DNA of 64,000 nt, taken from the NCBI GenBank assembly GCA_016839165.1, contig CP069300.1, positions 7,078,001-7,142,000 of the forward strand. The letters run 5' to 3'. Numbering within the stretch: position 1 is the stretch's first letter; each line of letters opens with the position of its first letter. Positions 6,557 through 30,701 of the stretch are shown here, piece after piece. The position numbers and the translations under genes are program-made. The DNA is from Bradyrhizobium sp. PSBB068. GTDB lineage: Bacteria; Pseudomonadota; Alphaproteobacteria; Rhizobiales; Xanthobacteraceae. The notes beneath the pieces are model-generated. The model worked only from the letters and a program-made list of their open reading frames with translations, made no database searches and was not told the origin of the DNA.

Positions 6557-6584
6557 CGGCGTAGTCGATACGGCGCGCTCTTCC

Positions 6585-15114: not shown

Positions 15115-15199
15115 GGTCCTCGCTTCCTGCCTCACGCAACGGCCGATCCGGCCATGCGATCCCGGCGCCGTGAAGGCGCGCGGACCCCTTCCACAAGAC

Positions 15200-16573
15200 C
15201 TAATAAGTCAGCTCGGCGACTGCAATCCGGTTCTCCGACGCCGGCCAGCTCCGCATCACAATGCGCTCGGCGTTGAAGATTGCGGCAACCGGACGTCCGA
15301 TCTCGGCCGCGGTGAGCCGCAACGTCGTCACCGCGTCGGTCGGCACGCCGGATTTGACGTCGGCCGGCTCCTTGCCGTCGAACAGCACGATATCGCGCGG
15401 TAATCCGAAATAACCGCGCGGCCGCGACATCAGCACGACGGCGCCTGCACCGGCATCGGCCGGCAGCATGGGCCGCGCGGCGCGCAGATGCACGATGTCG
15501 GAGGAGCGCGGAAACGGCGAGCGATAGATATGCGTCGTCACCGCATCAGGCGAGGTCAGCACGAATTCGAGCGACCAGGACGGATCGACCTGCGCCGGCC
15601 CCCACCGGCCATCGGCGCCGGTCTGCGAGCTGTGCAGCGGGCCGCCGAGGCGCTCGCCGGTTTCCGCCGACACATGATAGATGTCGACCACGGCGCCCGG
15701 CACCGGCCGGTTGGTCGGCACGCCGCCGGGCGTGCCCGTGACGAGGCCGCTCAGCCGCACCGCCGTCTCCGGCACGATCTCGATCCGCGACGGCTCACGT
15801 CCGGCGATGAATTTGTAGATCTCGCGAAAGGCGCGCGGATGATACGCGGTCTCGCGATGATCGACCGCGCCGAGCACCAGATTGGTCGCGCCTTTCAGCG
15901 CCGGGCCGTCGGTCGTGACGTTGGTCGGCGTGCCCGGCTTGCCGATGAAGCGGCCGTCGGCCTGCGCATATTTGTCGAGCCCGTCGCTGCGCAAGGTCAG
16001 GAACGCGGTGCCCGCGGTCACCTCGCTGTCGCCATCGTTCAGCCCGCGCAGGAACGGACCGCGCCCGTTGAACTCGTTGCCGAGGCCGTCGTCGGATGCA
16101 TAGACGCCGTGATTGGGCGTGCCGCACAGCACCGCGTGGCTGATGTCGCCGCTGCCACCATTCTTGATGGTGTTGCGGATCGCATTGCCGCCGCGGGAAT
16201 TCCCGACCAGCGCGATCCGCGTGGCGCCGCTGGTCTGCTTCAGCTCCCTGACCGCCTCGGCGAGCGCGCGGCGCTGGTCCTCGGTCGAGGAACGGCCCGC
16301 CTGCTCGACCTTGTCGTCGGCGCGCGCCAAGGGATCGGTGAAGTTGATCGCGGCCATGCGCTCGCGCGGCACGCCGTTGGACTCCATCCGCCACAGCGTC
16401 GTCATCCAGAGCGCGGCATGATCGCCGTTGCCGTGCACGAACAGGATCGGCGGCAGGGTCGGCGGAATGTCGCCGGCCGGCGCCGGCTGGGCAAAAGCCG
16501 GGGCGGCGAGGCGGCCCGCCAGCAGCGTCAGGGCGCCGGCTCCTTGAAAAAATCTCCGCCGCGACAGCGCCAT
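15200..16573 (-). CDS. Tat-exported alpha/beta hydrolase
   Basis: A 457-aa secreted serine hydrolase candidate. The N-terminus is a twin-arginine signal (SRRRFFQGAGALTLLAG, cleavage plausible at APAFA-Q, about residue 29). The mature part has a lipase/esterase core: PILFVHGNGDHAALW oxyanion region and nucleophile elbow VGNSRGGNAI (GxSxG, Ser about residue 148). The ~170-residue C-terminal region looks like a beta-rich domain (VDIYHVSAETGERLGG). It could be an esterase or depolymerase; no closer assignment. Same strand as P450, 85 bp upstream of it. Confidence 0.83.
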   Translation of the reverse strand: MALSRRRFFQGAGALTLLAGRLAAPAFAQPAPAGDIPPTLPPILFVHGNGDHAALWMTTLWRMESNGVPRERMAAINFTDPLARADDKVEQAGRSSTEDQRRALAEAVRELKQTSGATRIALVGNSRGGNAIRNTIKNGGSGDISHAVLCGTPNHGVYASDDGLGNEFNGRGPFLRGLNDGDSEVTAGTAFLTLRSDGLDKYAQADGRFIGKPGTPTNVTTDGPALKGATNLVLGAVDHRETAYHPRAFREIYKFIAGREPSRIEIVPETAVRLSGLVTGTPGGVPTNRPVPGAVVDIYHVSAETGERLGGPLHSSQTGADGRWGPAQVDPSWSLEFVLTSPDAVTTHIYRSPFPRSSDIVHLRAARPMLPADAGAGAVVLMSRPRGYFGLPRDIVLFDGKEPADVKSGVPTDAVTTLRLTAAEIGRPVAAIFNAERIVMRSWPASENRIAVAELTY

Positions 16574-16724
16574 TGATCCCCTTCCCCAAGCCTTTCAGGG
16601 CTTTAGCTGTGTCCTACAGCCCGCGAGGATACCGTAATCGCTGGACAGGACACGCGTTTGCCGGGCATCAGTTGATGCAGCCGGAATCATTCAACAAACC
16701 ATAGCAGGCCAACCGGAACCGGAT

Positions 16725-18404
16725 ATGACCGAACCGCCGGATCGACCAGACCGTATCACTGCACCGTTGCGGCATTCAATCTTCAGGCGGATCTGGCTCG
16801 CGAGCCTGCTCTCCAACCTCGGCATCCTGATCCAGGGCGTCGGCGCCGCCTGGGCGATGACCCAGATGACCGCGGAGGCCGACAAGGTCGCCCTGGTGCA
16901 GACCGCGCTGATGCTGCCGGTGATGCTGATCTCGATGCCGGCCGGCGCCATCGCCGACATGCATGACCGCCGCATCGTCGCGCTGGTGTCGCTGGCGATC
17001 GCGCTCTCCGGCGCGACCACGCTGACGGTGCTGGCCTGGCTCAATCTGGTGACGCCGAACATCCTGCTCGCGCTGTGCTTCGTGGTCGGCAGCGGCATGG
17101 CGCTGTTCGGCCCGGCCTGGCAATCCTCGGTCAGCGAGCAGGTGCCGTCGGAGACGCTGCCCGCCGCGGTCGCGCTGAACGGCATCAGCTACAACATCGC
17201 GCGCAGCTTCGGTCCTGCGATCGGCGGCATCGTGGTGGCCTCCGCGGGCGCCGTGGCGGCGTTCGCGGCCAACGCTGTCCTGTACCTGCCGCTGCTGGTC
17301 GTGCTGTTCCTGTGGAATCGCGTCAGCGAACCGTCGCGGCTGCCGCGCGAGCGGCTGAACCGCGCCATCGTCTCCGGCGTGCGCTACATCACCAATTCGC
17401 CGTCGATCAAGATCGTGCTGACCCGCACCATGGTGACCGGCATCATCGGCGGCTCGGTCTCGGCGCTGATGCCGCTGGTGGCGCGCGATTTGCTGCATGG
17501 CGGCGCGCAGACCTACGGCATCATGCTCGGCGCCTTCGGCATGGGCGCTGTGATCGGCGCACTCAACATCAGCGAGATCCGCAGCCGGCTCAGCGGCGAG
17601 GCCGCGGTGCGGACCTGCGCGCTGCTGATGGGCGTTGCGATCGCGATCGTCGCGGTGAGCAAGCAGCCGGTGATCACCGCAGCCGCGCTGGTGGTCGCCG
17701 GTGCGGTATGGATGCTGGCCATCGCGCTGTTCAATATCGGCGTGCAGCTCTCGGCGCCGCGCTGGGTCGCCGGCCGTTCGCTTGCGGCGTTTCAGGCCTC
17801 GATCGCCGGCGGCATTGCGATCGGAAGCTGGTGCTGGGGCCGCATCACGGACCTCGGTGGTGTCGAGACGGCGCTGTTGATCTCCGCCGGCCTGATGCTG
17901 CTGTCGCCGCTGCTCGGCATCTGGCTGCGGATGCCGCCGGTCGGCGCGCGCAACGAGGACGCGACGGTTGCCCTGGCCGATCCCGAGGTGCGGCTGCAAT
18001 TGACCGCGCGCAGCGGGCCGCTGGTGGTGGAGATCGAGTACCGGGTGGCGCAGGACAAGGCGCGCGCCTTCCACAATGTGATGCAGGACGTGCAGCTGAG
18101 TCGCCAGCGCAACGGCGCCTATGGCTGGTCGATCGCGCGCGACATCGCCGATCCCGAATTGTGGACCGAGCGCTATCATTGCCCGACCTGGCTCGATTTC
18201 CTGCGCCAGCGCAACCGCGCCACCCAGATCGAGCGCGAGCTGCACCAGAAGGCGGCCGACTTCCATATCGGCGCGGATCCGATCCGGGTGCGGCGGATGC
18301 TGGAACGGCCGTTCGGCTCGGTCCGCTGGAAGGACGAGACCCCGGATCGCGCCGCCAAGGAGGTGATCCCGGTGGTCGCGACCGCGGCGGGGAGTAGTAC
18401 GTAG
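16725..18404 (+). CDS. EntS/YfiS-like MFS transporter (MFS_3) with soluble C-terminal domain
   Basis: A 559-aa inner-membrane exporter. Residues ~15-410 are a 12-helix major facilitator of the enterobactin-exporter-like MFS_3 family (IRQ-type start FRRIWLASLLSNLGILIQGV; ADMHDRRIVALVSL between helices 2 and 3; GISYNIARSFGPAIGG). The final ~130 residues are a soluble domain (VEIEYRVAQDKARAFHNVM) resembling the dimeric alpha-beta barrel attached to many members. Substrate unknown; siderophore- or drug-like molecules are typical. Single gene bounded by a divergent hydrolase and a palindromic repeat. Confidence 0.9.
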   Translation: MTEPPDRPDRITAPLRHSIFRRIWLASLLSNLGILIQGVGAAWAMTQMTAEADKVALVQTALMLPVMLISMPAGAIADMHDRRIVALVSLAIALSGATTLTVLAWLNLVTPNILLALCFVVGSGMALFGPAWQSSVSEQVPSETLPAAVALNGISYNIARSFGPAIGGIVVASAGAVAAFAANAVLYLPLLVVLFLWNRVSEPSRLPRERLNRAIVSGVRYITNSPSIKIVLTRTMVTGIIGGSVSALMPLVARDLLHGGAQTYGIMLGAFGMGAVIGALNISEIRSRLSGEAAVRTCALLMGVAIAIVAVSKQPVITAAALVVAGAVWMLAIALFNIGVQLSAPRWVAGRSLAAFQASIAGGIAIGSWCWGRITDLGGVETALLISAGLMLLSPLLGIWLRMPPVGARNEDATVALADPEVRLQLTARSGPLVVEIEYRVAQDKARAFHNVMQDVQLSRQRNGAYGWSIARDIADPELWTERYHCPTWLDFLRQRNRATQIERELHQKAADFHIGADPIRVRRMLERPFGSVRWKDETPDRAAKEVIPVVATAAGSST

Positions 18405-18411
18405 ACTCCGT

Positions 18412-18519
18412 CGTCATTCCGGGACATCGCGCAGCGATGGGCCCGGAATCCATCGGGCCGCGAGTCCAGCGTTGGAATGGATTCCGGGCTCGCGCCAGGC
18501 GGCGCGCCCCGGAATGACG
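18412..18519. repeat. Palindromic intergenic repeat, GTCATTCCGGG family
   Basis: Opens GTCATTCCGGG and closes CCCGGAATGAC; internal pairs GGCCCGGAATCCAT / ATGGATTCCGGGC give a long cruciform-capable structure. It sits between the convergent MFS gene and the small Cys-rich gene, and could terminate both. Confidence 0.72.
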
Positions 18520-18528
18520 ATGATGGCG

Positions 18529-18744
18529 CTACTGCCCGTTGTCGGTGAGCGTCTGCTGGCAGGCCTTGCTGAGACGGCTGCGATGCTCCTTCAGGCAGGC
18601 CAGCACGACCTGATCGCCCTCGCCGAGATGGGCGCGGCAGAACCGCGAGGCATCGCGCGAGCAGGCATCGCGCCCCTGCTGCTGTGCTGAGACCGCTGAC
18701 GTCAGCAGAACCAGCGGAACGGCGGCGAACAGAAATCGGGTCAT
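18529..18744 (-). CDS. Small exported Cys-rich-repeat protein (copy 1)
   Basis: A 71-aa preprotein: signal peptide MTRFLFAAVPLVLLTSAVSA (cleavage after ~20) and a ~50-aa mature part with four cysteines in a C-x7-C ... C-x11-C-like pattern (DACSRDASRFCRAHLGEGDQ, ACLKEHRSRLSKAC). The spacing resembles the cysteine-rich repeat of Golgi/bacterial CR proteins. Probably periplasmic with two disulfides; function unknown. The ATG at 18744 is chosen because only it gives a signal peptide. A relative follows upstream on the same strand (18849-19154). Confidence 0.8.
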   Translation of the reverse strand: MTRFLFAAVPLVLLTSAVSAQQQGRDACSRDASRFCRAHLGEGDQVVLACLKEHRSRLSKACQQTLTDNGQ

Positions 18745-18848
18745 CACAAAGCCTCTAAGGAATGCGACGCTGGTTCTATAGCGTTTCAGGGCGGCAAAGA
18801 AGCCCTGCGGCTTCGCCGCCCACGGCGAAGTCCATTGGTGCACTGCAA

Positions 18849-19154
18849 TCACTCGGCGGCGGCCCGGCGCTGGGCCGCGAGATCGCGATCCAGCACGACG
18901 CGGCAGCCACTGGTCAGCTGGGAGCGGTTCTTGACCATGCACGCCGTGATCTTCGGGATGTTCGGGATCTCGGAGCTGCACAGGCTGAAGGCGTCACCGG
19001 TGCACATCTGCTGCGCCTCGGCGCTGAATGCGAAGCTCGCGCTCGAGGTCAGCGACGAGACGCTCGCCGCAACCGCCAGCACGACGGCGGTCCTGCGAAC
19101 GCCACGTCCAAGTGCTCCGCCCCGAAGAACCCGGCCTTTGAAAATGGTGGTCAT
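18849..19154 (-). CDS. Small exported Cys-rich-repeat protein (copy 2)
   Basis: A 101-aa preprotein with a long n-region and hydrophobic core (AVVLAVAASVSSLTSSASFA) and a mature part with four cysteines (MCTGDAFSLCSSEIPNIPKI, ACMVKNRSQLTSGC), the same arrangement as the neighbouring 71-aa protein: two Cys eight apart, then an ACxxxxRSxL...C block. The two look like diverged paralogues. GGGAG lies just upstream of the ATG at 19154. Function unknown; oxidised periplasmic protein likely. Confidence 0.8.
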   Translation of the reverse strand: MTTIFKGRVLRGGALGRGVRRTAVVLAVAASVSSLTSSASFAFSAEAQQMCTGDAFSLCSSEIPNIPKITACMVKNRSQLTSGCRVVLDRDLAAQRRAAAE

Positions 19155-19371
19155 GATCGGCTCCCATCGGCGCCACCGATCGCGGCGCCCGTTGTCTGAT
19201 GTCCGATCCTGCTTGAGCGCGCACCCGATGACTGTGACGACCATCACGCATCGGTAAAGCACGCTTTTTCTTGCGGTCCTGGCGCCTTGTTGGGATCGCG
19301 TTAAGACCTTGTTGGCATTAATCGCTCGTTACGGCTGTGGCGTATCCTTAAGTCCGAGAGAGTGTGTAGCG

Positions 19372-20424
19372 ATGCGTAGTGCGTTGGGCCTGATGCTGGC
19401 CAGTGTTGTAGCGGCGATCGTGATCGCCGGCGTGTGGTTCTGGACCTCCTCCCCGCGTGCCGACGCGGCGCCTCCGCAGACAACGGCAGCAAGCCAGGCC
19501 GATCCGCTGCCCACAGCGGCCAAGCAGGCCGCCAGAGACGATGTCGACACGACCGCCGCGCTCTCGAAGCGCGCCGACGCCACCCAGGCGGCGGCCCCGG
19601 CCGCTGCCCCTGCACCGGCGCCCGCTCCGGTCGTGGCGATGCCAAAATGCGCCAATCCCGATGGGCTCGGCATCAGCCGCACCGTCGTGGTCGACACCAC
19701 AGGCGGCCCGGGCTTCGGCTTCCTGCAGTACAAGCAATATGACTTCCTGACCGACCATGAGGTGGTGCTGACCTTCGACGACGGTCCGTGGCCGACCACG
19801 CCCGCCGTGCTCAAGGCGCTGGCGGACGAGTGCACCAAGGCGGTGTTCTTCCCGATCGGCCTGCACACCACCTATCACCCCGATATCCTCCGCCAGGTCG
19901 CCGCCGCCGGCCACACCATCGGCGCCCACACCTGGTCGCACGCGCATCTGGCGAGCAAGAAGATCACCGAGCAGCAGGCCAAGGACGAGATCGAGAAGGG
20001 TTTTAGCGCGGTGAAGCTGGCACTCGGCGCCAATCCGGCTCCGTTCTTCCGCTTCCCGGCACTGGCGCACACGCCGGCGACCACCGCCTATCTCGGCACC
20101 CGCAACATCGCGATGTTCTCGGTCGACGTCGACTCCAACGACTTCAAGTCCAAGAGCTCCGACGAAGTGATCAACAACGTGATGACCAAGCTCGACAAGG
20201 AGCACAAGGGCATCATCCTGATGCACGATCTGCAGAAGCACACCGCACAGGCGCTGCCGACGCTGCTGCGCAAGCTGAAGGCCGGCGGCTACAAGGTGGT
20301 CTGGATGAAGGCCAAGACCCAGATCGAGACGCTGCCGGAATACGACGCGATGATGGCGAAGACCGAGAAGCCGGTCGCATCGGGCCGGCCGATCGGCAAC
20401 GTCGTGCAGACGGTGGCCGAGTAA
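19372..20424 (+). CDS. Membrane-anchored polysaccharide deacetylase (NodB-homology, CE4)
   Basis: Predicted metal-dependent de-N-acetylase of peptidoglycan, chitin-type or other amino-sugar polymers. 350 aa: one N-terminal membrane anchor (LMLASVVAAIVIAGVWFW), an Ala/Pro-rich linker (AAAPAAAPAPAPAPV), then the NodB domain with TFDDGPWP (catalytic Asp plus metal Asp), HTWSH (metal His pair) and FRFPALAHT; IILMHD supplies the late histidine. Active-site residues are intact. ATG at 19372 (MRSALGLML). The linker and anchor suggest action in the periplasm. A strong hairpin follows the stop. Confidence 0.9.
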   Translation: MRSALGLMLASVVAAIVIAGVWFWTSSPRADAAPPQTTAASQADPLPTAAKQAARDDVDTTAALSKRADATQAAAPAAAPAPAPAPVVAMPKCANPDGLGISRTVVVDTTGGPGFGFLQYKQYDFLTDHEVVLTFDDGPWPTTPAVLKALADECTKAVFFPIGLHTTYHPDILRQVAAAGHTIGAHTWSHAHLASKKITEQQAKDEIEKGFSAVKLALGANPAPFFRFPALAHTPATTAYLGTRNIAMFSVDVDSNDFKSKSSDEVINNVMTKLDKEHKGIILMHDLQKHTAQALPTLLRKLKAGGYKVVWMKAKTQIETLPEYDAMMAKTEKPVASGRPIGNVVQTVAE

Positions 20425-20456
20425 CCCCGCGAATACGCCGAACACACTCAACCCAA

Positions 20457-20488
20457 GGGCGCTCCTGGATCCGATCCGGGGGCGCTTT
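20457..20488 (+). terminator. Rho-independent terminator of the deacetylase gene
   Basis: GGGCGCTCCTGGAT and the complementary GATCCGGGGGCGCTTT form a ~12-bp G-C-rich stem (with G-U pairs) and a three-base loop, followed by TTTCGTTCG. It lies 33 bp after the stop codon. Confidence 0.75.
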
Positions 20489-20561
20489 CGTTCGTGGTGT
20501 CGGCGTCGACTACCGGCAGATCACCACGGGCAATGGTGGCGAAATTCCTGCTTCAGATGTA

Positions 20562-20645
20562 CGCAGCCAAAATATCGAAACAACCCCATGCAAAGGAGCT
20601 GGCGGGTGCCGGCGCTCGACAAGGCAGCTTGACCCGTCGGGCTGC
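20562..20645 (+). repeat. Dispersed ~80-bp intergenic repeat, copy A
   Basis: The segment starting GCAGCCAAAATATCGAAACA and continuing CAACCCCATGCAAAGGAGCT recurs at 63331-63411 in the same orientation with about four in five bases identical, including the tail GCGCTCGACAAG. It is not coding and not a simple palindrome. Both copies lie at gene ends next to other repeats. Confidence 0.75.
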
Positions 20646-20656
20646 TCGGGCCCAAG

Positions 20657-21133
20657 ATGCATGGCACCGTGATGAAGATAGGACGCACGGTCTATCGCTC
20701 CTCCGTGATCGAACCAATCCTCGCCGCCTTGATGCCGTTCCAGGCCGCCGTCGGCATGCGGCTGGCTTGGCGCTGGAGCGCGGCCGGCGGATGCGTGTTT
20801 CAGATCGGCTCCGGCGTGTACCTCCCGGCGTTCATCGTAACCCATCTGAATTCCGCACTCGTCTCCGCGCGGGCCGTGAACCACATAGATACCAATTGGG
20901 CGCGTGCGTCGGGGGCACCGACCGGCCTGATCCACGACGCCTGGAGCATCCGCCTGGTGTCGCACTACGCGCTCGGCGTCTTCTTCGTCCTTGCCCATCT
21001 CACCTCGGGATTGCGCGGCGTCCTGATCGCGCACGGCGCGGCCACCGCGATCGCCAACCGGATCTGGGCAACCGGCCTCGCCGCGGTCGGACTGGTCGCG
21101 GTCGCGAGTGGACTGTGCGGCGCGCGGATCTAG
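20657..21133 (+). CDS. Hypothetical integral membrane protein, cytochrome b-like hydrophobic profile
   Basis: A 158-aa protein with four hydrophobic stretches (PILAALMPFQAAVGMRLAW; FQIGSGVYLPAFIVTHLNSA; LVSHYALGVFFVLAHLTSGL; GLAAVGLVAVASGLCG). Histidines sit inside the membrane segments (THLNS, SHYAL, VLAHL, IAHG), a pattern that could hold heme as in four-helix cytochromes b, but I recognise no family. Start uncertain: Met1 or Met6. Flanked by a dispersed repeat and a tRNA-end remnant, so it lies at the edge of an accessory region and could be a truncated gene. Confidence 0.55.
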   Translation: MHGTVMKIGRTVYRSSVIEPILAALMPFQAAVGMRLAWRWSAAGGCVFQIGSGVYLPAFIVTHLNSALVSARAVNHIDTNWARASGAPTGLIHDAWSIRLVSHYALGVFFVLAHLTSGLRGVLIAHGAATAIANRIWATGLAAVGLVAVASGLCGARI

Positions 21134-21149
21134 GTGGAAGATGTTCTGG

Positions 21150-21180
21150 GGTGCCGCAAGAAGGGAACGAAACCCCTCCT
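21150..21180 (+). mobile_element. Putative attL: degenerate duplicate of the tRNA-Thr 3' end
   Basis: GGTGCCGCAAGA (21150-21161) is identical to the 3'-terminal 12 bp of tRNA-Thr as read on the plus strand at 24169-24180. The next bases AGGGAACGAAACCCC resemble the T-arm GGGACTCGAACCCCC with a few changes. It is in direct orientation relative to the intact gene, as expected for the displaced tRNA end left by an element integrated at the tRNA 3' terminus. Confidence 0.6.
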
Positions 21181-21311
21181 CCAAACCCAGCATTTTCCGC
21201 CTAAACGCGCTGATCCGCGAGTTTCGTGCCGGGGATCGTGTACCATTGAAAGCGAAAATTGAACTGCCGAGATTAATCCGAAATCTGACCCTGGGTGCTC
21301 ATCACGCAGCC

Positions 21312-21806
21312 TTACATGTAGGGCTCGAGCTCGTTGAGTTCGATGCTGCACCTCTTGAGCCGCATGAGATCGCGAAGACGAAGCTTGGTCACCCCACTCT
21401 TCCAAAGGCCCTCGATATATTCGTCATCGCTCTCTACGAGTCCGCACCCACGTGCTTCGTAGCATCGGACGATCAGGTTGCGAACGCTGATGCCAGCAAT
21501 GTCACCGTACAGGGTAACGCCGTCGCGAATTTCGAACAGCTTTTCTGCCTGTCGGGAGGTGAGGCGAAAGTCGCGCAACGCGAGACGCGCCTCAGCGTGC
21601 TTCTCGCTAAATTTGAGGTCTTTGCGCTCCTTTGGACTGAGCGCGATAACCTTTTCCGCCTGCTCGACAGTGTCGAGCAGAAATGTCAACTCCCACTCAC
21701 TGAAGAGATTTTCAGCCACCTTCCTCATCGCGAGAAGGCTGAGGGCAAGGTTACGGACCTTGACCGGATCGCTGCTGACAGCGAGCATTTCGCGAGCAGA
21801 GGCCAT
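21312..21806 (-). CDS. Hypothetical protein in tRNA-Thr islet
   Basis: A 164-aa soluble, charged, mainly helical protein (segments LALSLLAMRKVAENLFSEWE and ERKDLKFSEKHAEARLALRD) rich in Lys, Arg and Glu. No motif or family recognised. The ATG at 21806 is chosen because AGGTG lies six bases upstream; a GTG nine bases earlier lacks a site. The last third (IRDGVTLYGDIAGISVRNLI, CYEARGCGLVESDDEYIEGL) looks less helical. Codon use differs from chromosomal neighbours. Confidence 0.6.
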   Translation of the reverse strand: MASAREMLAVSSDPVKVRNLALSLLAMRKVAENLFSEWELTFLLDTVEQAEKVIALSPKERKDLKFSEKHAEARLALRDFRLTSRQAEKLFEIRDGVTLYGDIAGISVRNLIVRCYEARGCGLVESDDEYIEGLWKSGVTKLRLRDLMRLKRCSIELNELEPYM

Positions 21807-22272
21807 CGGAGACACCTGTTAACAACATGTGCATGGCTGATGCAGAACTCGACGCGCGAAATCCTCCCTAAGTGATTTGCTGACTTTCAGCAAGGATCAG
21901 CGCCCGTAATCACCAGAAACTGCGGGGCGGCGGGAGCAGGCACGGAGCTTGCGCCTACGGTGAGTTCCGTTACGCTTTCAACCTGAGCGGGAGGACCGTG
22001 GCGTGCGAGAGCTTGGAAGGGTCAGTGTTGCTGGGTGGCCGACGAGGCCGCCTTCGTCGCATTGAGGAGTGGCGCAGGACGCGTTTCCAGCGACTGCTAA
22101 GAGGTTCGGATCGTGAAAGAGCCATCAGAGCAGCGCGCCACTGTCTCGACGTTAGTGCACGTCGCATAGCTGGCGAGGGAGGTCTGATCAGCTAGAACAC
22201 AAAGGCCCACTACCGGTGTCTAACGGACTTCTTACCTTAATAGCTCTGATACGCCCATTATCCGAGGCAGAC
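21807..22272. other. Islet intergenic region between divergent orphan genes
   Basis: 466 bp. Short open frames of 65 aa occur on both strands around 21970-22195, but neither has a recognisable ribosome site or family. They may be remnants of a lost gene. The region must carry promoters for the two divergent islet genes; none was confidently identified. Confidence 0.4.
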
Positions 22273-23274
22273 ATGCCACGTAAGCTTTTCAATATCATCG
22301 TAGGCTTCCGAAACTATCTCCGCCGAGAGCCGTCCGAAGCCCATTTTGATAGGGGCGGCATGGCCATTCCGGAGTACCAGCTTCGTCAACGAGAAGTACT
22401 GATCCAACGATCGCAAATCGAATTGCATGGACAACGCCAAGTTGCACCGACCCAAGACCCTGCGCCGGACATCGATGCAAGAGAAGCATTTTTTCTGATT
22501 TTCGAGGAAAGCGAGTGGCGGGAGAGTCAATTAAAAACAACCATTGATACCTCGAACCTCGTTTACGACTGGCTTGCGCGTCGGCTCGACAACGAAATCC
22601 ATAAAGCTCTGCGAAACTCGCTTCTCAGTTCTTGGGGCGAGGAATGCTTAGCAGGAACGGCCACTACCCCAGAAAAGCCTATCCCTCCGGACACGTGGGA
22701 CAAAGTTGAGATCGTATTTGATCGTAGTCATCTTCCACGGACTGCGGCTCACTGGAAGGGTCCCACAAGCCGCGAGTTCGGCCCAATGGCGTGGGTCGGC
22801 GTCAGGTTCTCTAGGAACCAGATATTCGGACAATTTCCACTAGTTCAGCGGCCGATCAAGATCATTTTCGACCAAGCTAATCCCAATAGAAGGTTTTGGT
22901 CAATCGAACCGATGAGGGACGAAACCGGAAAGCAAATACCCGGAACGTTTTGGGAGTATCGAGCGCTGATAAGGAATATGTCCGCCAAGACTCAAAGGAA
23001 CGTAAAGGTCATCGTCGAAGCAATCGGACCGATGCCTACTCGGCCGGAGCCGTCACAGTTCGACATCAACAAAAAGCATCTGATCGACTTAAATCCCGGA
23101 GAAGAGGCGCTTGTTTTGATACGGCGGTGGTACAACCCGCCTATCGTGGCGGGGATGGCGTGTGGCACAGACGTATATGGACCAATAAAAATGACCGCGA
23201 GTGCCGATGACGTTGTACCGACAATAAAGCTTTTTCATTTCGATCCTGAGCGGACACCAATGATCTTCGAGTAG
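22273..23274 (+). CDS. Hypothetical protein in tRNA-Thr islet
   Basis: A 333-aa soluble protein of unknown family. The N-terminal ~130 residues are charged and probably helical (YQLRQREVLIQRSQIELHGQ; DWLARRLDNEIHKALRNSLL). The C-terminal ~200 residues are beta-rich (FGPMAWVGVRFSRNQIFGQF, FWEYRALIRNMSAKTQRNVK, LNPGEEALVLIRRWYNPP) and could be an immunoglobulin-like or sensor domain, by appearance only. The ATG at 22273 (MPRKLFNII) has AGG five bases upstream and is preferred to a GTG at 22216. Convergent with the membrane gene that ends 31 bp away. Base composition lower in GC than the core genes. Confidence 0.65.
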   Translation: MPRKLFNIIVGFRNYLRREPSEAHFDRGGMAIPEYQLRQREVLIQRSQIELHGQRQVAPTQDPAPDIDAREAFFLIFEESEWRESQLKTTIDTSNLVYDWLARRLDNEIHKALRNSLLSSWGEECLAGTATTPEKPIPPDTWDKVEIVFDRSHLPRTAAHWKGPTSREFGPMAWVGVRFSRNQIFGQFPLVQRPIKIIFDQANPNRRFWSIEPMRDETGKQIPGTFWEYRALIRNMSAKTQRNVKVIVEAIGPMPTRPEPSQFDINKKHLIDLNPGEEALVLIRRWYNPPIVAGMACGTDVYGPIKMTASADDVVPTIKLFHFDPERTPMIFE

Positions 23275-23305
23275 CGCCGATCCAATGATGTAGGTCCTGA
23301 CATCC

Positions 23306-23971
23306 TTAAGCACCGATCTTGTGAAACAAAACCTTGCTGACTTTGATAAACACAAGCATCGAAGGGATCGACAAGCAGATAAACCCCGCGAGAAAGAAAA
23401 TTGCCGCGATCCATCGAGATATCGGGCGAGACCGGTCAAGCATCTCATAGAAGAGGTTCATTCGTATGCGAAGCAATTCGCGTCCGTTCCGCCGCAGTTC
23501 CTCTAGATCAGGGTTCGGCCTGCCAAAATAGTACGCGCCATATTCGCTACTGTCTTTGCGCGCGATATCGTCGCCGACCTCCAATTTCCTTTCGATGATC
23601 GCTATTTGCTTGTCGCTCACCGACGGTTCGTCGCCCGCGATGTACTCTTCGGGAGAGCCATACCGCTTCACTTCGCCGGGGCATCGTATTGCGAATACGG
23701 CTGAGGCAATCGCGATGAATACAAGGCCGACATAAACTGCAAGCAATCGCGTCAATGTATGGTCGGCAGCGTCGTCAAACACATCCTTCGACAGCGTAAG
23801 ATGCGCAACGATGTCGTCATTCAGCAAGATCAAATAGCCGATCAGCGGAATGAGCACGGTTAGCTTTGCGGCTCGCGAATTGCCGACCGACCGGAGCAAG
23901 CTCCATGGCAGTATGACCTTCCCGCGCTTCAAGCCGCTCCTAATCTCGGCTTCGGTCTGAGTGCTGCTCAT
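23306..23971 (-). CDS. Hypothetical membrane protein in tRNA-Thr islet
   Basis: A 221-aa protein with three to four predicted membrane spans: KLTVLIPLIGYLILL, LLAVYVGLVFIAIASAVFAI, and WIAAIFFLAGFICLSIPSML near the C-terminus. A ~90-residue charged cytosolic loop (PSVSDKQIAIIERKLEVGDD) separates spans 2 and 3. No family recognised; the layout resembles small-molecule- or stress-associated SLATT-like membrane proteins only superficially. Start ATG at 23971. Convergent with the 333-aa islet protein. Confidence 0.62.
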   Translation of the reverse strand: MSSTQTEAEIRSGLKRGKVILPWSLLRSVGNSRAAKLTVLIPLIGYLILLNDDIVAHLTLSKDVFDDAADHTLTRLLAVYVGLVFIAIASAVFAIRCPGEVKRYGSPEEYIAGDEPSVSDKQIAIIERKLEVGDDIARKDSSEYGAYYFGRPNPDLEELRRNGRELLRIRMNLFYEMLDRSRPISRWIAAIFFLAGFICLSIPSMLVFIKVSKVLFHKIGA

Positions 23972-24167
23972 CGGTCAGGCTCGTGCTGCGGTCGCGTCCA
24001 TGGTCGACGCGTTTACGGTATATCCAGTAATTGCGGCGCCCAACTTGACCAAGCTCGTGCGCCACCAGATCCACACTCCGCCGTGTAGCAGGATTGGGAT
24101 CAGCACCTACACGGAGAAACAATTTCCGCCCGGAAGATCGCAAGAATTGAAGGGCTTAGTCTGAGAA

Positions 24168-24243
24168 TGGTGCCGCAAGAGGGACTCGAACCCCCGACCC
24201 CGTCATTACGAATGACGTGCTCTACCAACTGAGCTATTGCGGC
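24168..24243 (-). tRNA. tRNA-Thr (anticodon CGT)
   Basis: 76 nt with encoded CCA. Read on the minus strand: acceptor GCCGCAA/TTGCGGC, D-arm GCTCAGTTGGTAGAGC, anticodon stem CGTCA/TGACG with loop TTCGTAA (anticodon CGT, reads ACG) and T-arm GGGGG-TTCGAGT-CCCTC. Its 3' end faces the low-GC islet and is partly duplicated at 21150, marking it as an integration target. Confidence 0.95.
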
Positions 24244-24278
24244 GAACCGTTCGGCAACGGCCTGAGCTTGCGCGCCAC

Positions 24279-24307
24279 CTGATATCGGGCATGACCCCGA
24301 TTGGCAA
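24279..24307 (-). promoter_or_regulatory. Sigma70-type promoter of tRNA-Thr
   Basis: On the minus strand TTGCCA (24302-24307) is followed after 17 bases by TATCAG (24279-24284). The inferred start, about 24272, is some 30 bases before the tRNA 5' end. Good -35, moderate -10. Confidence 0.5.
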
Positions 24308-24312
24308 GAAGA

Positions 24313-24330
24313 TGCGGTTATTAAACCGCA
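24313..24330 (-). terminator. Hairpin after the HemY-domain gene
   Basis: A perfect 7-bp stem TGCGGTT/AACCGCA with a four-base loop, followed on the minus strand by TCTTCTTG. It lies 22 bp after the stop codon at 24352, separating the heme operon from tRNA-Thr. Confidence 0.6.
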
Positions 24331-24351
24331 CAGCCGTTACCTAACCCCGAA

Positions 24352-26097
24352 TTAGCTTCCCAAACGTGACAGAAATCCGCGCCAACCGCCCGCCTGGGCC
24401 TTGGGAGGGCCGATTTGTTCCGCAAATTCGTCCACCGGGCCGTCCTCATCGACCCCGGGGTCGTCGGGAGCCCGGACGATCGGAATCACGGCCGGAATCG
24501 GCGCCGGCGCCGCCTTGGGCAGATCAGTCCGGGACCGGAACAGCGGGGCCGGGGCCGGGGGCGCCGCCTCAGTGGCCGGGGGTGGAACCGGCTCCGGCGC
24601 GGCGGGTTCAGGCGGCACCGGCTCGGCGTCGCTGGCCGCCGGCGCCGGGGCGTTGTCCTGCACGGACGGCGTGGCCGGCTCGACCGGCTTGGCCTCGACC
24701 GGCTCAACCGGCTTGGGTGACGGCGGCTCGATGGCCAGCTCCTTGGGCGGCTCGACCCGACGCGGCGCCAGCATCGCCTCTTCGAACGGCGAGGGCTCGA
24801 TCGCATTGCCCTTGTCGGACGGCAGCGCCGCCACCGGCGTCTGCCACTGGAAGGCATCGAAGCGGCCGGTGACCGGCGACACCGGACGCCAGCGATCCGA
24901 GACATAGCCGTCGGCAGTCCACACCGGATCATGCAGCGCGCGCACCGCGCGCAGGGTCCAGGCCCGTGCCCGGCCGCTGTCGCCATGCTCGCTGCGCTCG
25001 ATCTCGGCCATCAGCAGCGCGACGCGCTGGGTCGGCGCGGCTGTGAACGGCTCCAGCGCCGCACGCGCCTTGCCGAATTCGGCCGCATCTATCGCGGCGC
25101 GCGCGATCGCCAGCGCGCCCTCGATGTTGCCCGGCGTCTTGGCCGCCAGCGTCTCGACGCGCACCAGCCGCTGCCGCGCGGAATCGCCGAGCCGGACATG
25201 CGAATAGGCGTCGGCGAGATCGGGATGCGGCTGCTTGAGCCACGCGGTCTCGACGATGCGCATGGCGCGGCGCACCTGATGCGCCTCGCTCTCGAACTTC
25301 GCCGAGAGCACCGCGGCGGGGATCAGCGTCGGCGCCAGCTTGACGGCCTCCATCGCGCTCGAGCGCGACAGGTCGCGATCGACGGTCTCCAACTCCAGCG
25401 CGCGCGCCGTCAGCAGCACGCCGCGCTGCCGCCGATAGGTCGCCTTGTCGATCAATCCGGCCGTCTGGTTGTTGTCGATGATCGACAGCGCGCCGGCCCA
25501 GTCACCCTTGGCGCAGCAGAAGCCGAGCACCGCATGCGAGGCCCATGACGAGGACGGCGACATCTTCAGCGCCTCCTCGGCGATCATCACGGCCGCCACC
25601 GGATCGTCGGCGCGCTGTGCCTCGATGAACAGGCCGCGCAGGCCGAGCAGCCGCGTGTCGGCGCGCTCGGCCATGGCGCGGAAGGCGCGCTGCGCGCCGT
25701 CGCGATCGCCGTCGAGCTGCGCCGATTGCGCGTGCAGCAACAGCGCCAGCGGATCACCTCCGGCGTGGCGCCGCGCCACCTCGGCATGGGCACGCGCCGC
25801 CGACGAATCGCCATGCCCGATCGCGAGCAGGCCTTGCGTGATGGCGTGACGGCCGCGGGCGTGGCGCCGCTCGCGCTGGCCGCGTCGGATGCGGCCCGGG
25901 ATCTTCCACAGTCCGCGCAGGATCATGCCGGCGACCATTGCGACGACGATGACGAGGCCGAGCAGGTACATCGGCTGCCTGGACGTCAGACGCAACCCGC
26001 CCCAATTCAGCACGAGATCGCCGGGCTGATCGGCCAACCAGGCGGCACCCGCTGCAGCGAGCGCGATCAGCAGCAGGAACAGAATGATCCGGATCAT
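24352..26097 (-). CDS. HemY N-terminal domain, tetratricopeptide-like membrane protein
   Basis: A 581-aa inner-membrane protein of the alphaproteobacterial HemY family, associated with protoporphyrin/heme biosynthesis genes (not the oxygen-dependent PPO). Two N-terminal membrane spans (IILFLLLIALAAAGAAWLA and MYLLGLVIVVAMVAGMILRG) are followed by helical-repeat segments (AITQGLLAIGHGDSSAARAH; ALAIARAAIDAAEFGKARAA) and the conserved DRWRPVSPVTGRFDAFQW. The last ~130 residues are Pro/Ala/Glu-rich low complexity. ATG at 26097. Directly downstream of the Mic60-like gene (20 bp), likely one operon with hemD. Confidence 0.9.
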   Translation of the reverse strand: MIRIILFLLLIALAAAGAAWLADQPGDLVLNWGGLRLTSRQPMYLLGLVIVVAMVAGMILRGLWKIPGRIRRGQRERRHARGRHAITQGLLAIGHGDSSAARAHAEVARRHAGGDPLALLLHAQSAQLDGDRDGAQRAFRAMAERADTRLLGLRGLFIEAQRADDPVAAVMIAEEALKMSPSSSWASHAVLGFCCAKGDWAGALSIIDNNQTAGLIDKATYRRQRGVLLTARALELETVDRDLSRSSAMEAVKLAPTLIPAAVLSAKFESEAHQVRRAMRIVETAWLKQPHPDLADAYSHVRLGDSARQRLVRVETLAAKTPGNIEGALAIARAAIDAAEFGKARAALEPFTAAPTQRVALLMAEIERSEHGDSGRARAWTLRAVRALHDPVWTADGYVSDRWRPVSPVTGRFDAFQWQTPVAALPSDKGNAIEPSPFEEAMLAPRRVEPPKELAIEPPSPKPVEPVEAKPVEPATPSVQDNAPAPAASDAEPVPPEPAAPEPVPPPATEAAPPAPAPLFRSRTDLPKAAPAPIPAVIPIVRAPDDPGVDEDGPVDEFAEQIGPPKAQAGGWRGFLSRLGS

Positions 26098-26117
26098 CAA
26101 GAACCTATTGCAAGAAG

Positions 26118-27392
26118 CTATTGATTGACCGTGGCGAGCGCCGCCATGGCGTTGTCGGCAAATTTACGCGACGCGTCGAGCGCGGCACGGCGTGCGTCCA
26201 CCCTGGCGAGCCAGGCTTGCGCCGCGGTGCGATCGGCCGGCGGCAACGACTTCAATTCGCGTTCGGTCAATGCGAGATCATTATGCACGGCGGCCGATGT
26301 CACGCGCGCGACGATGCTGCCGCGGTCGGTGCCGGTGCCGTCGGTCCGCTCGATGCGGATCAGCTTGGAGGCGCCGGCCTGCAGACGATCGACCAGCCCG
26401 GCGCTGGCGGCCGCGGCCTCCGGCGGCGGCGGAGCAAGCTGCGGCACGATCTCGATCAGCTCGCGGCACAGCGCGTTCGGATTCGGCACGCCTGACGCAG
26501 CGAAGACTTCGAGCGGCTTCAGCATATCGGGATTGTCGGCGATGGCCTTCGCGGCCTCGAGCGCCGAGCCGTAGGGATCGCCGTGACGCACCGCGACGTC
26601 GAGCAGCGAGGCCGCAACCACGCGGCGCAGCGGCACATCATCCGCCTTCGCCTCGGCCTTGGTGTCGGCGATCTTGCCGTCCTGTTTGGCGATCGCGGCG
26701 CCCTGCGCCTTCACCGCACCCTCGACCCTGTCGATCCGCGCCGTGAGGCCGGAGATGTCGGGCGCCGCCGCGCCATCGCGCGGCGCGGCCTTCGCGTCAT
26801 TCACCGCAGCGGCGAGCTTGTCGGATTGCGCCCGCGTCGCGGCGAGCTCGGTACGCAGCACGGCGATCGACTTGTCGAGCGCCTCGAGCCTTGCGGTTGC
26901 CGCGGGATCGGCGACCGCAGCGGCTGGCCGGCTCGCCTTTGCTTCGAGCGCGGCCAGGCGCGCACCGAGTTCGTCAACCGTTGCGGCGCTGGGCTGCGGC
27001 GCGGACGCCGGCGGCACCGAGGGCCAGCCGAGCAGCCAGCCGACCCCGATCACCAGCGCGGCGGCGACCGCGCCCGACACCGGCGCCACCACCCAGGGCG
27101 ACACCGGCCGCGGCCGCTCGGCCTCCGGTGCCGCGGAGGCGGCCTCGAGTTGCGGCTCTGTGTGAGGCGCAGGATCGGGATGAGGCTCCGCCCCGGGCGC
27201 AGCCGCCTCGCCGGCATGGCCAGCGGTTTCCTCGCCAGTTTCCTTGCCAATTTCCTTGGCGGCTTCCTCGGTCGCCTCGGTCCTTGACGGCTCGCTGGAG
27301 ATTTCGGTCGCCTGAAGATCAATGGTCGGCGGTGCGCGCTTGGGCCGGGAATCCGGCGAAGGTCCTGGGTCGTCGGGCCTTTCTTCAGCCAT
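26118..27392 (-). CDS. Mic60/mitofilin-like membrane protein (COG4223)
   Basis: A 424-aa envelope protein: Pro/Glu-rich cytosolic N-terminus (~100 aa), a single membrane span (PWVVAPVSGAVAAALVIGVG), a coiled-coil region rich in Ala/Lys/Glu (LGARLAALEAKASRPAAAVA to DKLAAAVNDAKAAP) and a conserved C-terminal helical domain (RRVVAASLLDVAVRHGDPYG). This is the architecture of alphaproteobacterial Mic60, which sits beside hemY/hemD and is known to shape intracytoplasmic membranes and bind BamA in relatives. ATG at 27392 (MAEERPDDPG). Between hemD and the HemY-domain gene. Confidence 0.85.
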   Translation of the reverse strand: MAEERPDDPGPSPDSRPKRAPPTIDLQATEISSEPSRTEATEEAAKEIGKETGEETAGHAGEAAAPGAEPHPDPAPHTEPQLEAASAAPEAERPRPVSPWVVAPVSGAVAAALVIGVGWLLGWPSVPPASAPQPSAATVDELGARLAALEAKASRPAAAVADPAATARLEALDKSIAVLRTELAATRAQSDKLAAAVNDAKAAPRDGAAAPDISGLTARIDRVEGAVKAQGAAIAKQDGKIADTKAEAKADDVPLRRVVAASLLDVAVRHGDPYGSALEAAKAIADNPDMLKPLEVFAASGVPNPNALCRELIEIVPQLAPPPPEAAAASAGLVDRLQAGASKLIRIERTDGTGTDRGSIVARVTSAAVHNDLALTERELKSLPPADRTAAQAWLARVDARRAALDASRKFADNAMAALATVNQ

Positions 27393-27430
27393 CGCGAGGG
27401 TCCTCAAAACTACTGGCCGCACATTCTAGA

Positions 27431-27462
27431 GCATGATCCGATCCGATTGAATCGGATCATGC
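27431..27462. terminator. Perfect 12-bp palindrome of the GCATGATCC type
   Basis: GCATGATCCGAT and ATCGGATCATGC flank an eight-base loop. It lies between hemD and the Mic60-like gene, upstream of the latter. The core GATCATGC also appears at 28473-28480 and near 4512 and 8381, so it belongs to a small repeat family. No T-tract on either strand. Confidence 0.6.
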
Positions 27463-27582
27463 CGTCATCGAGTTGTTTGGTGGCGTTACCTTAACGCGAA
27501 CCGCTCCGTCAGGATCGGCCATGGTCTTAGAGCACGATCCGAAACCCGGAGCATTGCCTAACATCATGGTCCGACGAAAGAA

Positions 27583-28323
27583 TTATTCGAGTGACGGCCG
27601 CATTGTGCGGTCGAGCGCCTCCAGCAGGGCGTTTTCGTCCGGCCGCGCCGCCACCACCACCTTGGTCGCACCGGCGTCATGGAGCACCGCGGCGACCGCG
27701 GCCGAGATGCAGCACTGCGGCAAAGCGAGCGCCGAAATCTCCAGGCCGTCGGCCCGGATCGTGTCCAGGAAGGCCTGCGCGCTGCGCCGGGAATAATGCA
27801 GCACCGCTGTGATCCGGTTCGCCATGAAGGCGTCGCTGACCTCCCTTGGAAAGCCGGCCACCGGCGCCATCCGGTAGGTGGTATGGGTGACGACGCTTAA
27901 CCCGCGCTCGCCCAGTTCACCGGCGAGATCGCGCGACAGGTCGGCGCCGGCGAGATAGAGCAGCGTGGCGGATGCCGGCAGCTCGCCGGCCTTGACCCGC
28001 GCGAGCACGAGATCACGCAGGCTCACCGCGTCGCCCTTGGCCACGATCACCTTGTCGAAGCCGGCGGCACGTGCGGCGTCCGCGGTGTGCGTCCCCACCG
28101 CGAACAGCGGCAGCGGCATCAGCCGGCTCGCACCGAGATCGACCGCGCGCAGCGCATTGGCGCTGGTCAGGATGACCGCGTCATATTCGGCATCGTCGTC
28201 ATCATGGAACGGCAACGGCTCGAAGCGCAGCACCGGCGCCGCGAGGGCATCAAAGCCGCGCTGGCGCAGCGTCGCAAGCGTCGCGGCACTATCCGGATGC
28301 GGTCGTGTGACAAGGATGGTCAG
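27583..28323 (-). CDS. hemD: Uroporphyrinogen-III synthase, apparent CTG start
   Basis: Cyclises hydroxymethylbilane to uroporphyrinogen III in tetrapyrrole synthesis. The 246-aa frame begins [20 protein letters not shown] and contains [33 protein letters not shown] and [16 protein letters not shown], the landmarks of the family. No ATG, GTG or TTG occurs at the expected position. The codon there is CTG (28321-28323), with GGGAGG seven bases upstream. The nearest in-frame ATG (28440) adds 39 residues unlike the family, has no ribosome site and lies inside a palindromic repeat. I therefore infer a CTG start. Divergent from tsaD; operon with the Mic60-like and HemY-domain genes. Confidence 0.85.
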
Positions 28324-28436
28324 GGTCAGGCCTCCCGCCTTGCGAATTGGCCCCTGCAGATTGGACCTTGTTGGTCCTTGGCGACCGATTGCACTTTGCG
28401 ACCTCGCAATGCTACCCCGGAGAGGACATTTGATGG

Positions 28437-28481
28437 GCATGATCTGGCCGGAAACCGGTTCCGGCCGGTCCGGATCATGCT
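28437..28481. repeat. Palindromic repeat between hemD and tsaD
   Basis: Outer arms GCATGATC (28438-28445) and GATCATGC (28473-28480) enclose GGCCGGAAACCGGTTCCGGCC, itself self-complementary. A typical Bradyrhizobium-type GATCATGC element. It overlaps the region where both divergent genes need promoters. Confidence 0.65.
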
Positions 28482-28518
28482 GGTAGCACAAGGGCCGAAA
28501 TTGGGACACGAACCGCCG

Positions 28519-29592
28519 ATGCTGGTGTTGGGAATCGAGACCACCTGCGATGAAACCGCAGCCGCCGTGGTCGAGCGCCAGGCTGACGGACAGGCCAAGA
28601 TCCTCTCCAACGTCGTGCGTTCGCAGACCGACGAGCACGCCCGCTTCGGCGGCGTGGTGCCGGAGATCGCGGCGCGCGCCCATGTCGACCTGCTCGACGG
28701 TATCATCGCCTCCGCCATGAAGGAGGCCGGCGTCGGCTACGGCCAATTGTCCGCGGTGGCAGCGGCCGCCGGCCCCGGCCTGATCGGCGGCGTGATCGTC
28801 GGTCTCACCACCGCGAAGGCGATCGCGATGGTGCACGACACGCCGCTGATCGCGGTGAACCATCTCGAGGCGCACGCGCTGACGCCGCGGCTGACCTGCG
28901 CGCTGGCGTTTCCCTATTGCCTGTTCTTGGCCTCGGGCGGCCACACCCAGATCGTCGCCGTGGTCGGGGTCGGCGAATATGTCCGGCTCGGCACCACGGT
29001 CGACGATGCGATGGGCGAGGCGTTCGACAAGGTGGCGAAGATGCTGTCGCTGCCCTATCCCGGCGGACCGCAGGTCGAGCGCGCGGCGGCCGACGGCGAC
29101 CCGACGCGGTTTGCCTTTCCGCGCCCGATGCTCGGCCGTCCGGATGCGAATTTCTCGCTGTCGGGACTGAAGACGGCGGTGCGCAACGAGGCGAGCCGGC
29201 TGGAGCCATTGGAGCCGCAGGACATCAGCGACCTCTGCGCGAGCTTCCAGGCCGCGGTGCTGGAAGCGACCGCGGACCGGCTGACCGTCGGCCTGCGGTT
29301 GTTCCAGGAACGGTTCGGCACGCCGCGCGCATTGGTCGCGGCCGGCGGCGTTGCCGCCAACCACGCCATCCGCAGCGCGTTGCAGGATGTCGCGGCGAAA
29401 GCGCAGACCACGCTGATCATCCCGCCGCCGGCGCTCTGCACCGACAATGGCGCGATGATCGCCTGGGCCGGCGCCGAGCGGATGGCGCTCGGACTCACCG
29501 ACACGATGGAAGCGCCGCCGCGCGCGCGCTGGCTGCTCGATGCCAACGCCAAGGCGCCGGCCGGCCACGCCAACAGCCGCGCCGGATATTGA
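28519..29592 (+). CDS. tsaD: tRNA N6-adenosine threonylcarbamoyltransferase TsaD
   Basis: Transfers threonylcarbamoyl to A37 of ANN-decoding tRNAs, with TsaB/TsaE. 357 aa, near-standard length. Seen: [17 protein letters not shown] (nucleotide-binding start), the metal-binding [11 protein letters not shown] histidines (about residues 115 and 119), [35 protein letters not shown] and [11 protein letters not shown], with the C-terminal [11 protein letters not shown] supplying the metal Asp. Start at 28519 follows the family; an in-frame ATG at 28477 would add 14 residues encoded by a palindromic repeat. gpsA follows 13 bp later. Confidence 0.96.
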
Positions 29593-29605
29593 ACCGAGGG
29601 GTCGG

Positions 29606-30583
29606 ATGCCCGCGCATATGTCAGTCAGCGTGATCGGTGCCGGCGCCTGGGGCACGGCATTGGCCGAGGTCGCGGCGCGCGCCGGACGCAAGGTGACGCT
29701 GTATGCGCGCAATGCCGGGCATGCGGCGCGGATCGAGGCGACGCGGGTCAATCCGAAGCTGACTGGTGTCCAGCTTCAGCCCGGCATCGCGGTGACGTCG
29801 GATATCTCCGCCGCCGCACGCGCCGACATCATCCTCGCGGTCACCCCGGCGCAGCATCTGCGCGCGGCGGTCGGACACCTTGCGCCGTACCTCGAACCCG
29901 ACACACCTGTCATCGCCTGCGCCAAGGGCATCGAGCACGGCACGCACAAGTTCATGACCGAGGTGGTTGCGGAGGCCGCACCGCGCGCGGTGCCCGCGAT
30001 CCTGTCGGGACCGAGCTTTGCCGACGACGTCGCGCGCGGATTGCCTACCGCCGTGACGCTGGCTGCCAAGGATGAGGCGCTTGCACGTGCGCTGGTCCAG
30101 GCGCTCGGTTCGGCGACGTTCCGGCCCTACCACACGTCAGACGTGCGCGGCGTCGAGATCGGCGGCGCGGCCAAGAATGTGCTGGCGATCGCGGCCGGCA
30201 TCGTCGTCGGCAAGGAGCTCGGCGCCTCTGCGCTCGCCGCACTGACCACGCGCGGCTTCAGCGAACTCGCCCGGTTGGGCCGCGCCTGCGGGGCGCGCAC
30301 CGAGACGCTGTCCGGCCTGTCGGGGCTCGGCGATCTCTTGCTCAGCTGCTCGACCGCGCAATCGCGCAATTTCGCACTCGGCCTCGCGCTCGGGCGCGGC
30401 GAAGCAGCGCCGGTCGGCAAGCTTGCCGAAGGCGCGTTCACCGCTCCGGTGCTGTGCGAGCTCGCCGCTGCGCAGAAGGTCGATATGCCGGTGTCGAACG
30501 CGGTCGCCGCGATCCTGAGCGGCCGGCTGACGATCGATGCGGTGATCGAAGGATTGCTGACACGGCCTTTCAAGGCCGAGTAG
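29606..30583 (+). CDS. gpsA: NAD(P)-dependent glycerol-3-phosphate dehydrogenase
   Basis: Reduces dihydroxyacetone phosphate to sn-glycerol 3-phosphate for phospholipid synthesis. 325 aa. Nucleotide loop [20 protein letters not shown] (GxGxxGxA), [33 protein letters not shown], and catalytic-lysine block [18 protein letters not shown] followed by [16 protein letters not shown]. The ATG at 29606 has GAGGGG just upstream; MSVSVIG at 29618 is an alternative. Probably co-transcribed with tsaD, a frequent pairing in alphaproteobacteria. Confidence 0.95.
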
Positions 30584-30701
30584 CGCGCGTCACAGGTGCG
30601 CGAGGTGGAGCTTCACGATCCGCGCGCGCCGTACTAGCGTGGCGGCGAACCGTCGGATCCCGGTCTTAGCAGTCGAGCAACGGATCCCAAGGGAAAAACA
30701 C

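Follow-up and report, generated by a model that had tools for sequence, protein, structure and literature searches.

In a survey of Escherichia coli, transfer RNA (tRNA) loci make up 18 of 41 defence hotspots, and the integrase-only defence islands at such hotspots are described as small, present in a subset of genomes and unclear in their mode of transfer, typically keeping an integrase or recombinase together with recognised systems (PMC10121019). Integration hot spots within tRNA genes are also reported in a study of Sinorhizobium meliloti (PMC11476347). Among membrane-effector defences, Csx23 (PMC11014256) and Cap1 (PMC12642688) are presented as membrane proteins that are switched by a recognition part. 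Here we analyse a 3.02-kb islet (21150-24167) in a stretch of 64,000 nucleotides (the window) from Bradyrhizobium sp. PSBB068 (assembly GCA_016839165.1, contig CP069300.1, positions 7,078,001 to 7,142,000). Three intact open reading frames (ORFs), p164, p333 and p221, lie between a tRNA-Thr gene and a repeat of its end; they were listed in the same way, as coding for proteins of 164, 333 and 221 amino acids (aa), the last a membrane protein convergent with the second, by the original prediction, which was made from the letters of this DNA. The islet resembles the E. coli islands in its small size, its hotspot location, its presence in a subset of genomes and its unclear mode of transfer, whereas it has neither an integrase or recombinase nor a recognised system. 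A recognition part that switches a membrane protein, as with Csx23 and Cap1, is proposed for its cargo, although p221 matches no PADLOC model and the islet includes no CRISPR part. As an element the islet is of an ordinary sort, cleanly displayed; its cargo would add a variant to the sensor-plus-membrane-effector systems. Our best explanation as a whole, a tRNA islet carrying p333 as sensor and p221 as membrane effector, is given a probability of about 0.55.

The insertion itself can be read from the tRNA repeat, from empty sites in relatives and from base composition. ARAGORN places the intact tRNA-Thr gene where the original prediction had it, on the minus strand, and Rfam places it at 24171-24243. 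Its last 12 bases are repeated exactly at 21150-21161, and the similarity continues in decayed form, the segments 21150-21176 and 24169-24195 being 81% identical over 27 bases, 12 of them exact. The expected number of chance matches to the 12-mer with at most one mismatch is 0.56 per 64 kb; the exact 12-mer occurs twice in the 7.67-Mb genome, at the two islet ends 3 kb apart, which bears out the earlier claim of a partial direct duplicate of the tRNA 3' end with 12 identical bases. A DNA search with 20400-25000 against 98 genomes, own genome included, listed outside that genome matches to the right flank, which start at the tRNA end, within 10 bases of it or later, and to the left flank; islet DNA beyond that boundary was in none of the matches listed for the 97 other genomes. 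Among 16 fetched loci examined, sequence resembling the outer flank directly abuts the tRNA end in L031, L032, L034, L035, L036 and L041, with identities over aligned columns of 0.68, 0.69, 0.55, 0.55, 0.76 and 0.75, the weakest alignments being L034 and L035. Because the tRNA end in these six loci adjoins sequence that lies outside the repeat of the window, the islet is absent from them, and the empty site for which the original prediction proposed to search is present in relatives. Near relatives sharing the same genes in the same place, which the prediction regarded as evidence against an insertion, did not emerge: matches to p164, p333 and p221 at E 1e-8 were found in 0 of 56 surveyed loci.

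Composition sets the islet apart as well. In steps of 500 bases, GC content is 0.50-0.58 across 21250-24249 and 0.62-0.76 elsewhere in 15000-30999, with values of 0.59 and 0.60 in the two steps that straddle the islet ends. GC content and codon adaptation index (CAI) are 0.563 and 0.455 for p164, 0.515 and 0.332 for p333, and 0.532 and 0.409 for p221, against 0.664±0.027 and 0.684±0.087 for 49 reference ORFs, which were chosen by a heuristic from the window outside the islet. All three islet genes lie below the lowest reference GC (0.609); the lowest reference CAI, 0.355, belongs to one outlier that falls below p164 and p221, and the next lowest is 0.526. The three genes are thus foreign by composition, and the per-gene comparison upholds the earlier remark that the cargo is poorer in GC than its surroundings, its composition not being core-like. 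Repeat, empty sites and composition together establish insertion at the tRNA. The reading of the 3-kb insert as foreign DNA at the tRNA-Thr(CGT) 3' end is well supported.

The junction has a longer history. The gap between the deacetylase match and the tRNA is 172 bp in L037 and 100 bp in L039, and the segment 20436-21149, outside the repeat, is likewise missing beside the tRNA in two relatives, hence the site took up DNA more than once. The outer flank is a truncated copy of a gene for an SdhC-like membrane protein, which indicates that other changes have occurred at this junction: the remnant corresponds to aa 186-355 with 78% identity, relatives hold the full-length 355-aa copy, and its SdhC-like match is weak and below cut-off. 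Several relatives hold, besides the 355-aa copy, a further, diverged copy of part of it near the tRNA, so that the fragment seems to have been duplicated around other inserts.

The island side of tRNA-Thr was surveyed in 56 loci (16 + 40), some represented by short stretches. The deacetylase match ends less than 300 bp from the tRNA in 7 of them and is not seen within the fetched stretch in 11, while an integrase, sought with a probe taken from L038, lies 187-189 bp from tRNA-Thr in three (L038, L045 and L150). The genomes concerned are G070 (L038/L114), G061 (L045) and G043 (L150); their islands use the same tRNA end and side as the islet, with DNA inserted before the deacetylase, and differ from it in that the islet spans only 3 kb and has no integrase. 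The distance from tRNA to deacetylase is 13.8 kb in G070, where HsdM and HsdS genes lie within the stretch, and 27.8 kb in G061. The L038 and L045 integrases match Arm-DNA-bind_3, Phage_int_M and Phage_integrase; tRNA-anchored islands with such phage-type tyrosine integrases are labelled P4-type. Among the matches listed for the G070 and G061 islands, no candidate for a second attachment (att) copy exceeded 11 exact bases. Searched with two integrases of the same tRNA-Thr site, the islet gave a best E of 0.12, and the genome as a whole gave one weak relative (28%, E 4e-4). An integrase gene of its own was not found, and the islet does not count as an autonomous element. Its description as an integrative element without its own integrase is supported by the repeat, the empty sites, the foreign composition and the integrases beside this tRNA-Thr elsewhere. 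Because three other genomes have such an integrase next to this tRNA, a phage-type tyrosine integrase probably made the insertion. The original prediction was right about the footprint of an integrative element and too specific in holding the integrase to be lost, since the enzyme may instead have acted in trans. In L033, a small insert (4892-5464) carries a gene of the octameric membrane protein family 8xMP 57 bp from tRNA-Thr and has no match to the integrase probe.

Table 1. Features of the islet and its flanks in window coordinates, followed by upstream neighbours of distant p221 relatives
Feature	Position or locus	Strand	Description	Basis
Polysaccharide deacetylase	19309..20424	+	Conserved left flank	
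SdhC-like remnant	20636..21130	+	5'-truncated gene for an SdhC-like membrane protein (355 aa when complete); flanks the repeat on its outer side	
tRNA-Thr 3'-end copy	21150..21176	+	Decayed; first 12 bases exact, remaining 15 diverged; opposite islet end	
p164	21312..21806	-	164 aa, predicted soluble, nothing above cut-off in the family scans; probable passenger	
p333	22273..23274	+	333 aa, two modules, soluble; proposed sensor or recognition component	
p333 module A	22435..22851	+	aa about 55-193	Boundary set from BLAST ranges
p333 module B	22852..23271	+	aa about 194-333, predicted all-beta	
p221	23306..23971	-	221 aa, hydrophobic segments aa 37-55, 77-95 and 191-209; proposed membrane effector	
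tRNA-Thr	24168..24243	-	Anticodon CGT, intact, CCA encoded; one islet end	ARAGORN; Rfam
HemY_N/TPR protein	24352..26100	-	Conserved right flank	
GmrSD	L088		Upstream neighbour	Pfam above cut-off
DUF2971	L093		Upstream neighbour	Pfam above cut-off
ThiC	L095		Upstream neighbour, housekeeping gene	Pfam above cut-off
DUF4365	L098 (L099 homologous)		Upstream neighbour	Pfam above cut-off
RES	L102		Upstream neighbour	Pfam above cut-off

Judged from its sequence, p221 belongs to an unnamed family with three transmembrane (TM) segments, whose aligned members share the motifs W..LR..G.S, P..GYLILFN and L...YFGL...CP...K. The search returned 33 hits, own cluster included. At E 1e-20, 8 of 265 genomes of the genus match, and the next best hit after the own protein (1e-115) reaches only 8e-39, which makes the close form a rare one in this set. 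Among named organisms, closer forms are carried by Bradyrhizobium sp. USDA 4473 (57%) and HKCCYLRH3059 (56%). Distant relatives, at about 25-46% identity, were found in 14 of 195 genomes of the genus, own included (E 1e-3), and relatives in 13 of 391 genomes of the taxonomic family (E 1e-10). Five plasmid records, plasmids of Rhizobium, Sinorhizobium and Vibrio among them, contain relatives, and other members of the family used as queries recover four or five of the same records or none. The viral-contig scans, at their sensitivity, returned no relatives, and a sequence search of PDB returned no match. Effectors of the SLATT type have two TM segments and are represented in Pfam; p221 and 10 distant relatives have no Pfam match above cut-off. 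Weak hits of p221 below cut-off are TIGR04554 (E 0.023), NF009236 (E 0.19) and two PHROGs (E 0.05-0.09). For this membrane-protein family, then, Pfam, NCBIfam and PADLOC give nothing above cut-off, and the PHROGs hits are weak.

The neighbours of distant p221 relatives were examined in 20 fetched loci, the broken copies L087 and L108 being excluded. In all 20 the GC content of the p221-relative gene is below that of its stretch, and in 12 the gene is preceded, in the same direction, by an ORF at least 200 aa long that ends within 160 nucleotides (nt) of it or overlaps it. These partners are of different kinds, several of them defence-type (Table 1). Ten upstream neighbours were scanned with PADLOC, and strong matches were obtained for L088, labelled Orf5 of type IV restriction, and for L098, labelled with the Aga_REase model, which from its name we presume to be Argonaute-associated. 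No Pfam match was obtained for the neighbours in L089, L090 and L097. On sequence grounds L088 (Rhizobium johnstonii pRL11) and L089 (a Sinorhizobium alkalisoli plasmid) are one clean case of partner exchange: their DNA similarity is confined to the membrane gene (5965-6585 in both; 81% over 575 bp), and the upstream proteins, GmrSD in the former and an unmatched 607-aa protein in the latter, are unrelated (best E 7.1). The L088 (GmrSD) and L098 (G501, DUF4365) loci carry the same 3-TM family as the islet with a different partner, whereas in the window it is p333 that adjoins p221 and the genes converge. Low-GC inserts with a homologous AAA-like ATPase gene followed by a p221 relative occupy, in three genomes, 4295-6323 of L101, 4488-6454 of L105 and 4476-6492 of L094. 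In L100, AbiTii is convergent with the p221 relative.

The proposed partner p333 is a protein of two separable modules. Module A is found elsewhere with different C-terminal parts, and module B after helix-turn-helix (HTH), HNH or TM segments; among 109 homologues, 12 have both modules, 58 have B only and 39 have A only, and 57 of the B-only proteins fall into 18 N-terminal groups. The structure model of p333 reaches a predicted local distance difference test score (pLDDT) of 87, and its fold comparison yields similarity of module B to immunoglobulin (Ig)-like/E-set beta-sandwiches at middling Z, by which the module is probably Ig-like. Within the 391 genomes of the family, p333 matches its own genome and one other (E 1.6e-5). 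One genome-contig scan gave three distant module-B loci, two in Methylobacterium and one in an Acidobacteria metagenome-assembled genome; the Methylobacterium proteins (L067, 7713-8477; L068, 7761-8525) have hydrophobic N-termini and a C-terminal module-B relative, 43-46% identical. Neither the plasmid protein search nor, at their sensitivity, the viral-contig scans returned relatives of p333, and a PDB sequence search gave no match.

The genes for p333 and p221 converge with 31 nt between them. When the 109 hits of p333 and the 33 hits of p221 are compared by the size of the contigs on which they lie, four sizes (5572, 11661, 1467 and 2227) coincide, against a mean of 0.35 in a crude jittered null of 2000 draws. 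The shared sizes exceed this mean and on that ground suggest, short of proof, that the two genes are linked. For p333 with p164 there is 1 coincidence against 1.86 expected, and for p221 with p164 there are 0 against 0.64. Of the original idea that the three genes form one system, the p333/p221 part is accordingly kept, and the inclusion of p164 is not.

The sequence of events that we favour begins with the entry of the 3.02-kb islet into the chromosome. It would have recombined site-specifically with the tRNA-Thr(CGT) 3' end, probably through a phage-type tyrosine integrase that was supplied in trans or has since been lost. The functional cargo would be the convergent p333/p221 pair, with p164 as an unrelated passenger. 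The p333 protein may sense an infection-related ligand through modules A and B and then release or activate p221, which would damage the membrane and stop growth in an abortive-infection type of defence. A defence-type function of the cargo, as a sensor with a membrane effector, is possible, its chances falling slightly short of even; phage defence would be its likeliest use because of some of the partner types and the restriction-modification genes in one island at the same tRNA. A broader proposal is more tentative, and we would call it doubtful: p221 may found an undescribed 3-TM effector family with exchangeable sensors (GmrSD, AAA-like, DUF4365, DUF2971, RES), with, in this islet, a probably Ig-like recogniser that is shuffled among HTH, HNH and membrane-anchored proteins, and tRNA-Thr islets may spread such pairs without an integrase of their own. 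Searches of openly licensed PMC papers turned up no account of the islet, nor of a membrane family accompanied by partners of these kinds. Should the family prove to be a common killing module, a single assay of a small protein would bear on several partner types together, and the tRNA-Thr/deacetylase junction would be a place to seek more such modules.

Several observations weigh against the sensor-and-effector explanation. Nothing above cut-off was found for p164, p333 or p221 in Pfam, NCBIfam, PHROGs and PADLOC, in line with the initial impression that the genes match no family; PADLOC matches 0 of the 32 sequences of the p221 alignment and, strongly, only the above 2 of 10 upstream neighbours. 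The p221 model has a pLDDT of 69, and Foldseek and VIA-align gave no useful match. The linkage of the pair rests on equal contig sizes and not on contexts that were read, and the highest of the null draws also reached four. The window pair is convergent, and distant p221 relatives are mostly downstream of their neighbours and co-directional with them. By the rule given above, 8 of the 20 distant loci have no upstream partner, among them L094, where an 84-aa ORF lies between, ThiC of L095 is a housekeeping protein, and the AAA_16 matches in the L101, L105 and L094 neighbours are below the Pfam cut-off. In the islet, 0 sigma-70-like sites were found against 1.7 expected.

The strongest competitor, itself unlikely, is that the pair forms a conflict module other than phage defence, serving to recognise kin, to exclude plasmids or to pair a toxin with a neutraliser; p333 would then act as recogniser or toxin, with p221 as its partner in the membrane. 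The convergent layout, the p333 relatives with TM, HTH or HNH N-termini, and a broken p221 relative that lies on a conjugative plasmid close to MobC, relaxase and recombinase genes would fit such a module; restriction-type genes, however, adjoin some distant p221 relatives, and no toxin domain was matched in the family scans. Marginally less probable again is that the neighbours p333 and p221 have nothing to do with each other, p221 acting alone or with a lost partner in an islet of passengers. The four shared contig sizes against 0.35 expected speak against this, as does the intactness of all three ORFs, with relatives at about 50-88% identity, even though the genes converge and do not form an operon, p164 is unlinked, the outer flank holds a truncated gene, and some distant p221 relatives lack a partner upstream (in L092 and L100; L091 has only a 90-aa ORF there). 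That the islet entered by homologous recombination or illegitimate insertion, with a tRNA repeat due to chance, is very improbable. In its favour, the repeat is short (12 exact bases, 27 at 81%), no integrase is present and no second att copy was found among the matches listed for the integrase-bearing islands. Against it, the 7.67-Mb genome has just two copies of the 12-mer, 3 kb from each other, similarity to relatives stops no more than 10 bases from the tRNA end, and integrases are found at the same tRNA.

The broken relative just mentioned lies in L087 (5980-6661), on Bradyrhizobium barranii pBb38S5a, where the p221-like gene is split over two reading frames; the MobC, relaxase and recombinase genes lie within about 5 kb of it. 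As to p164, it looks like an unlinked passenger. It occurs in 2 of 195 genomes of the genus, own included, and its relatives were not found in the plasmid protein search. Its weak matches are TIGR02530 (E 0.17) and one in the PDB sequence search (E 0.47); the JGI label "GAF domain-containing protein" attached to some relatives was rejected, as no Pfam match at E 1 or better was obtained. Searches with p164 returned 114 hits, 53-77% identical outside the window's own cluster, and one relative is encoded on an IMG/VR contig (L070).

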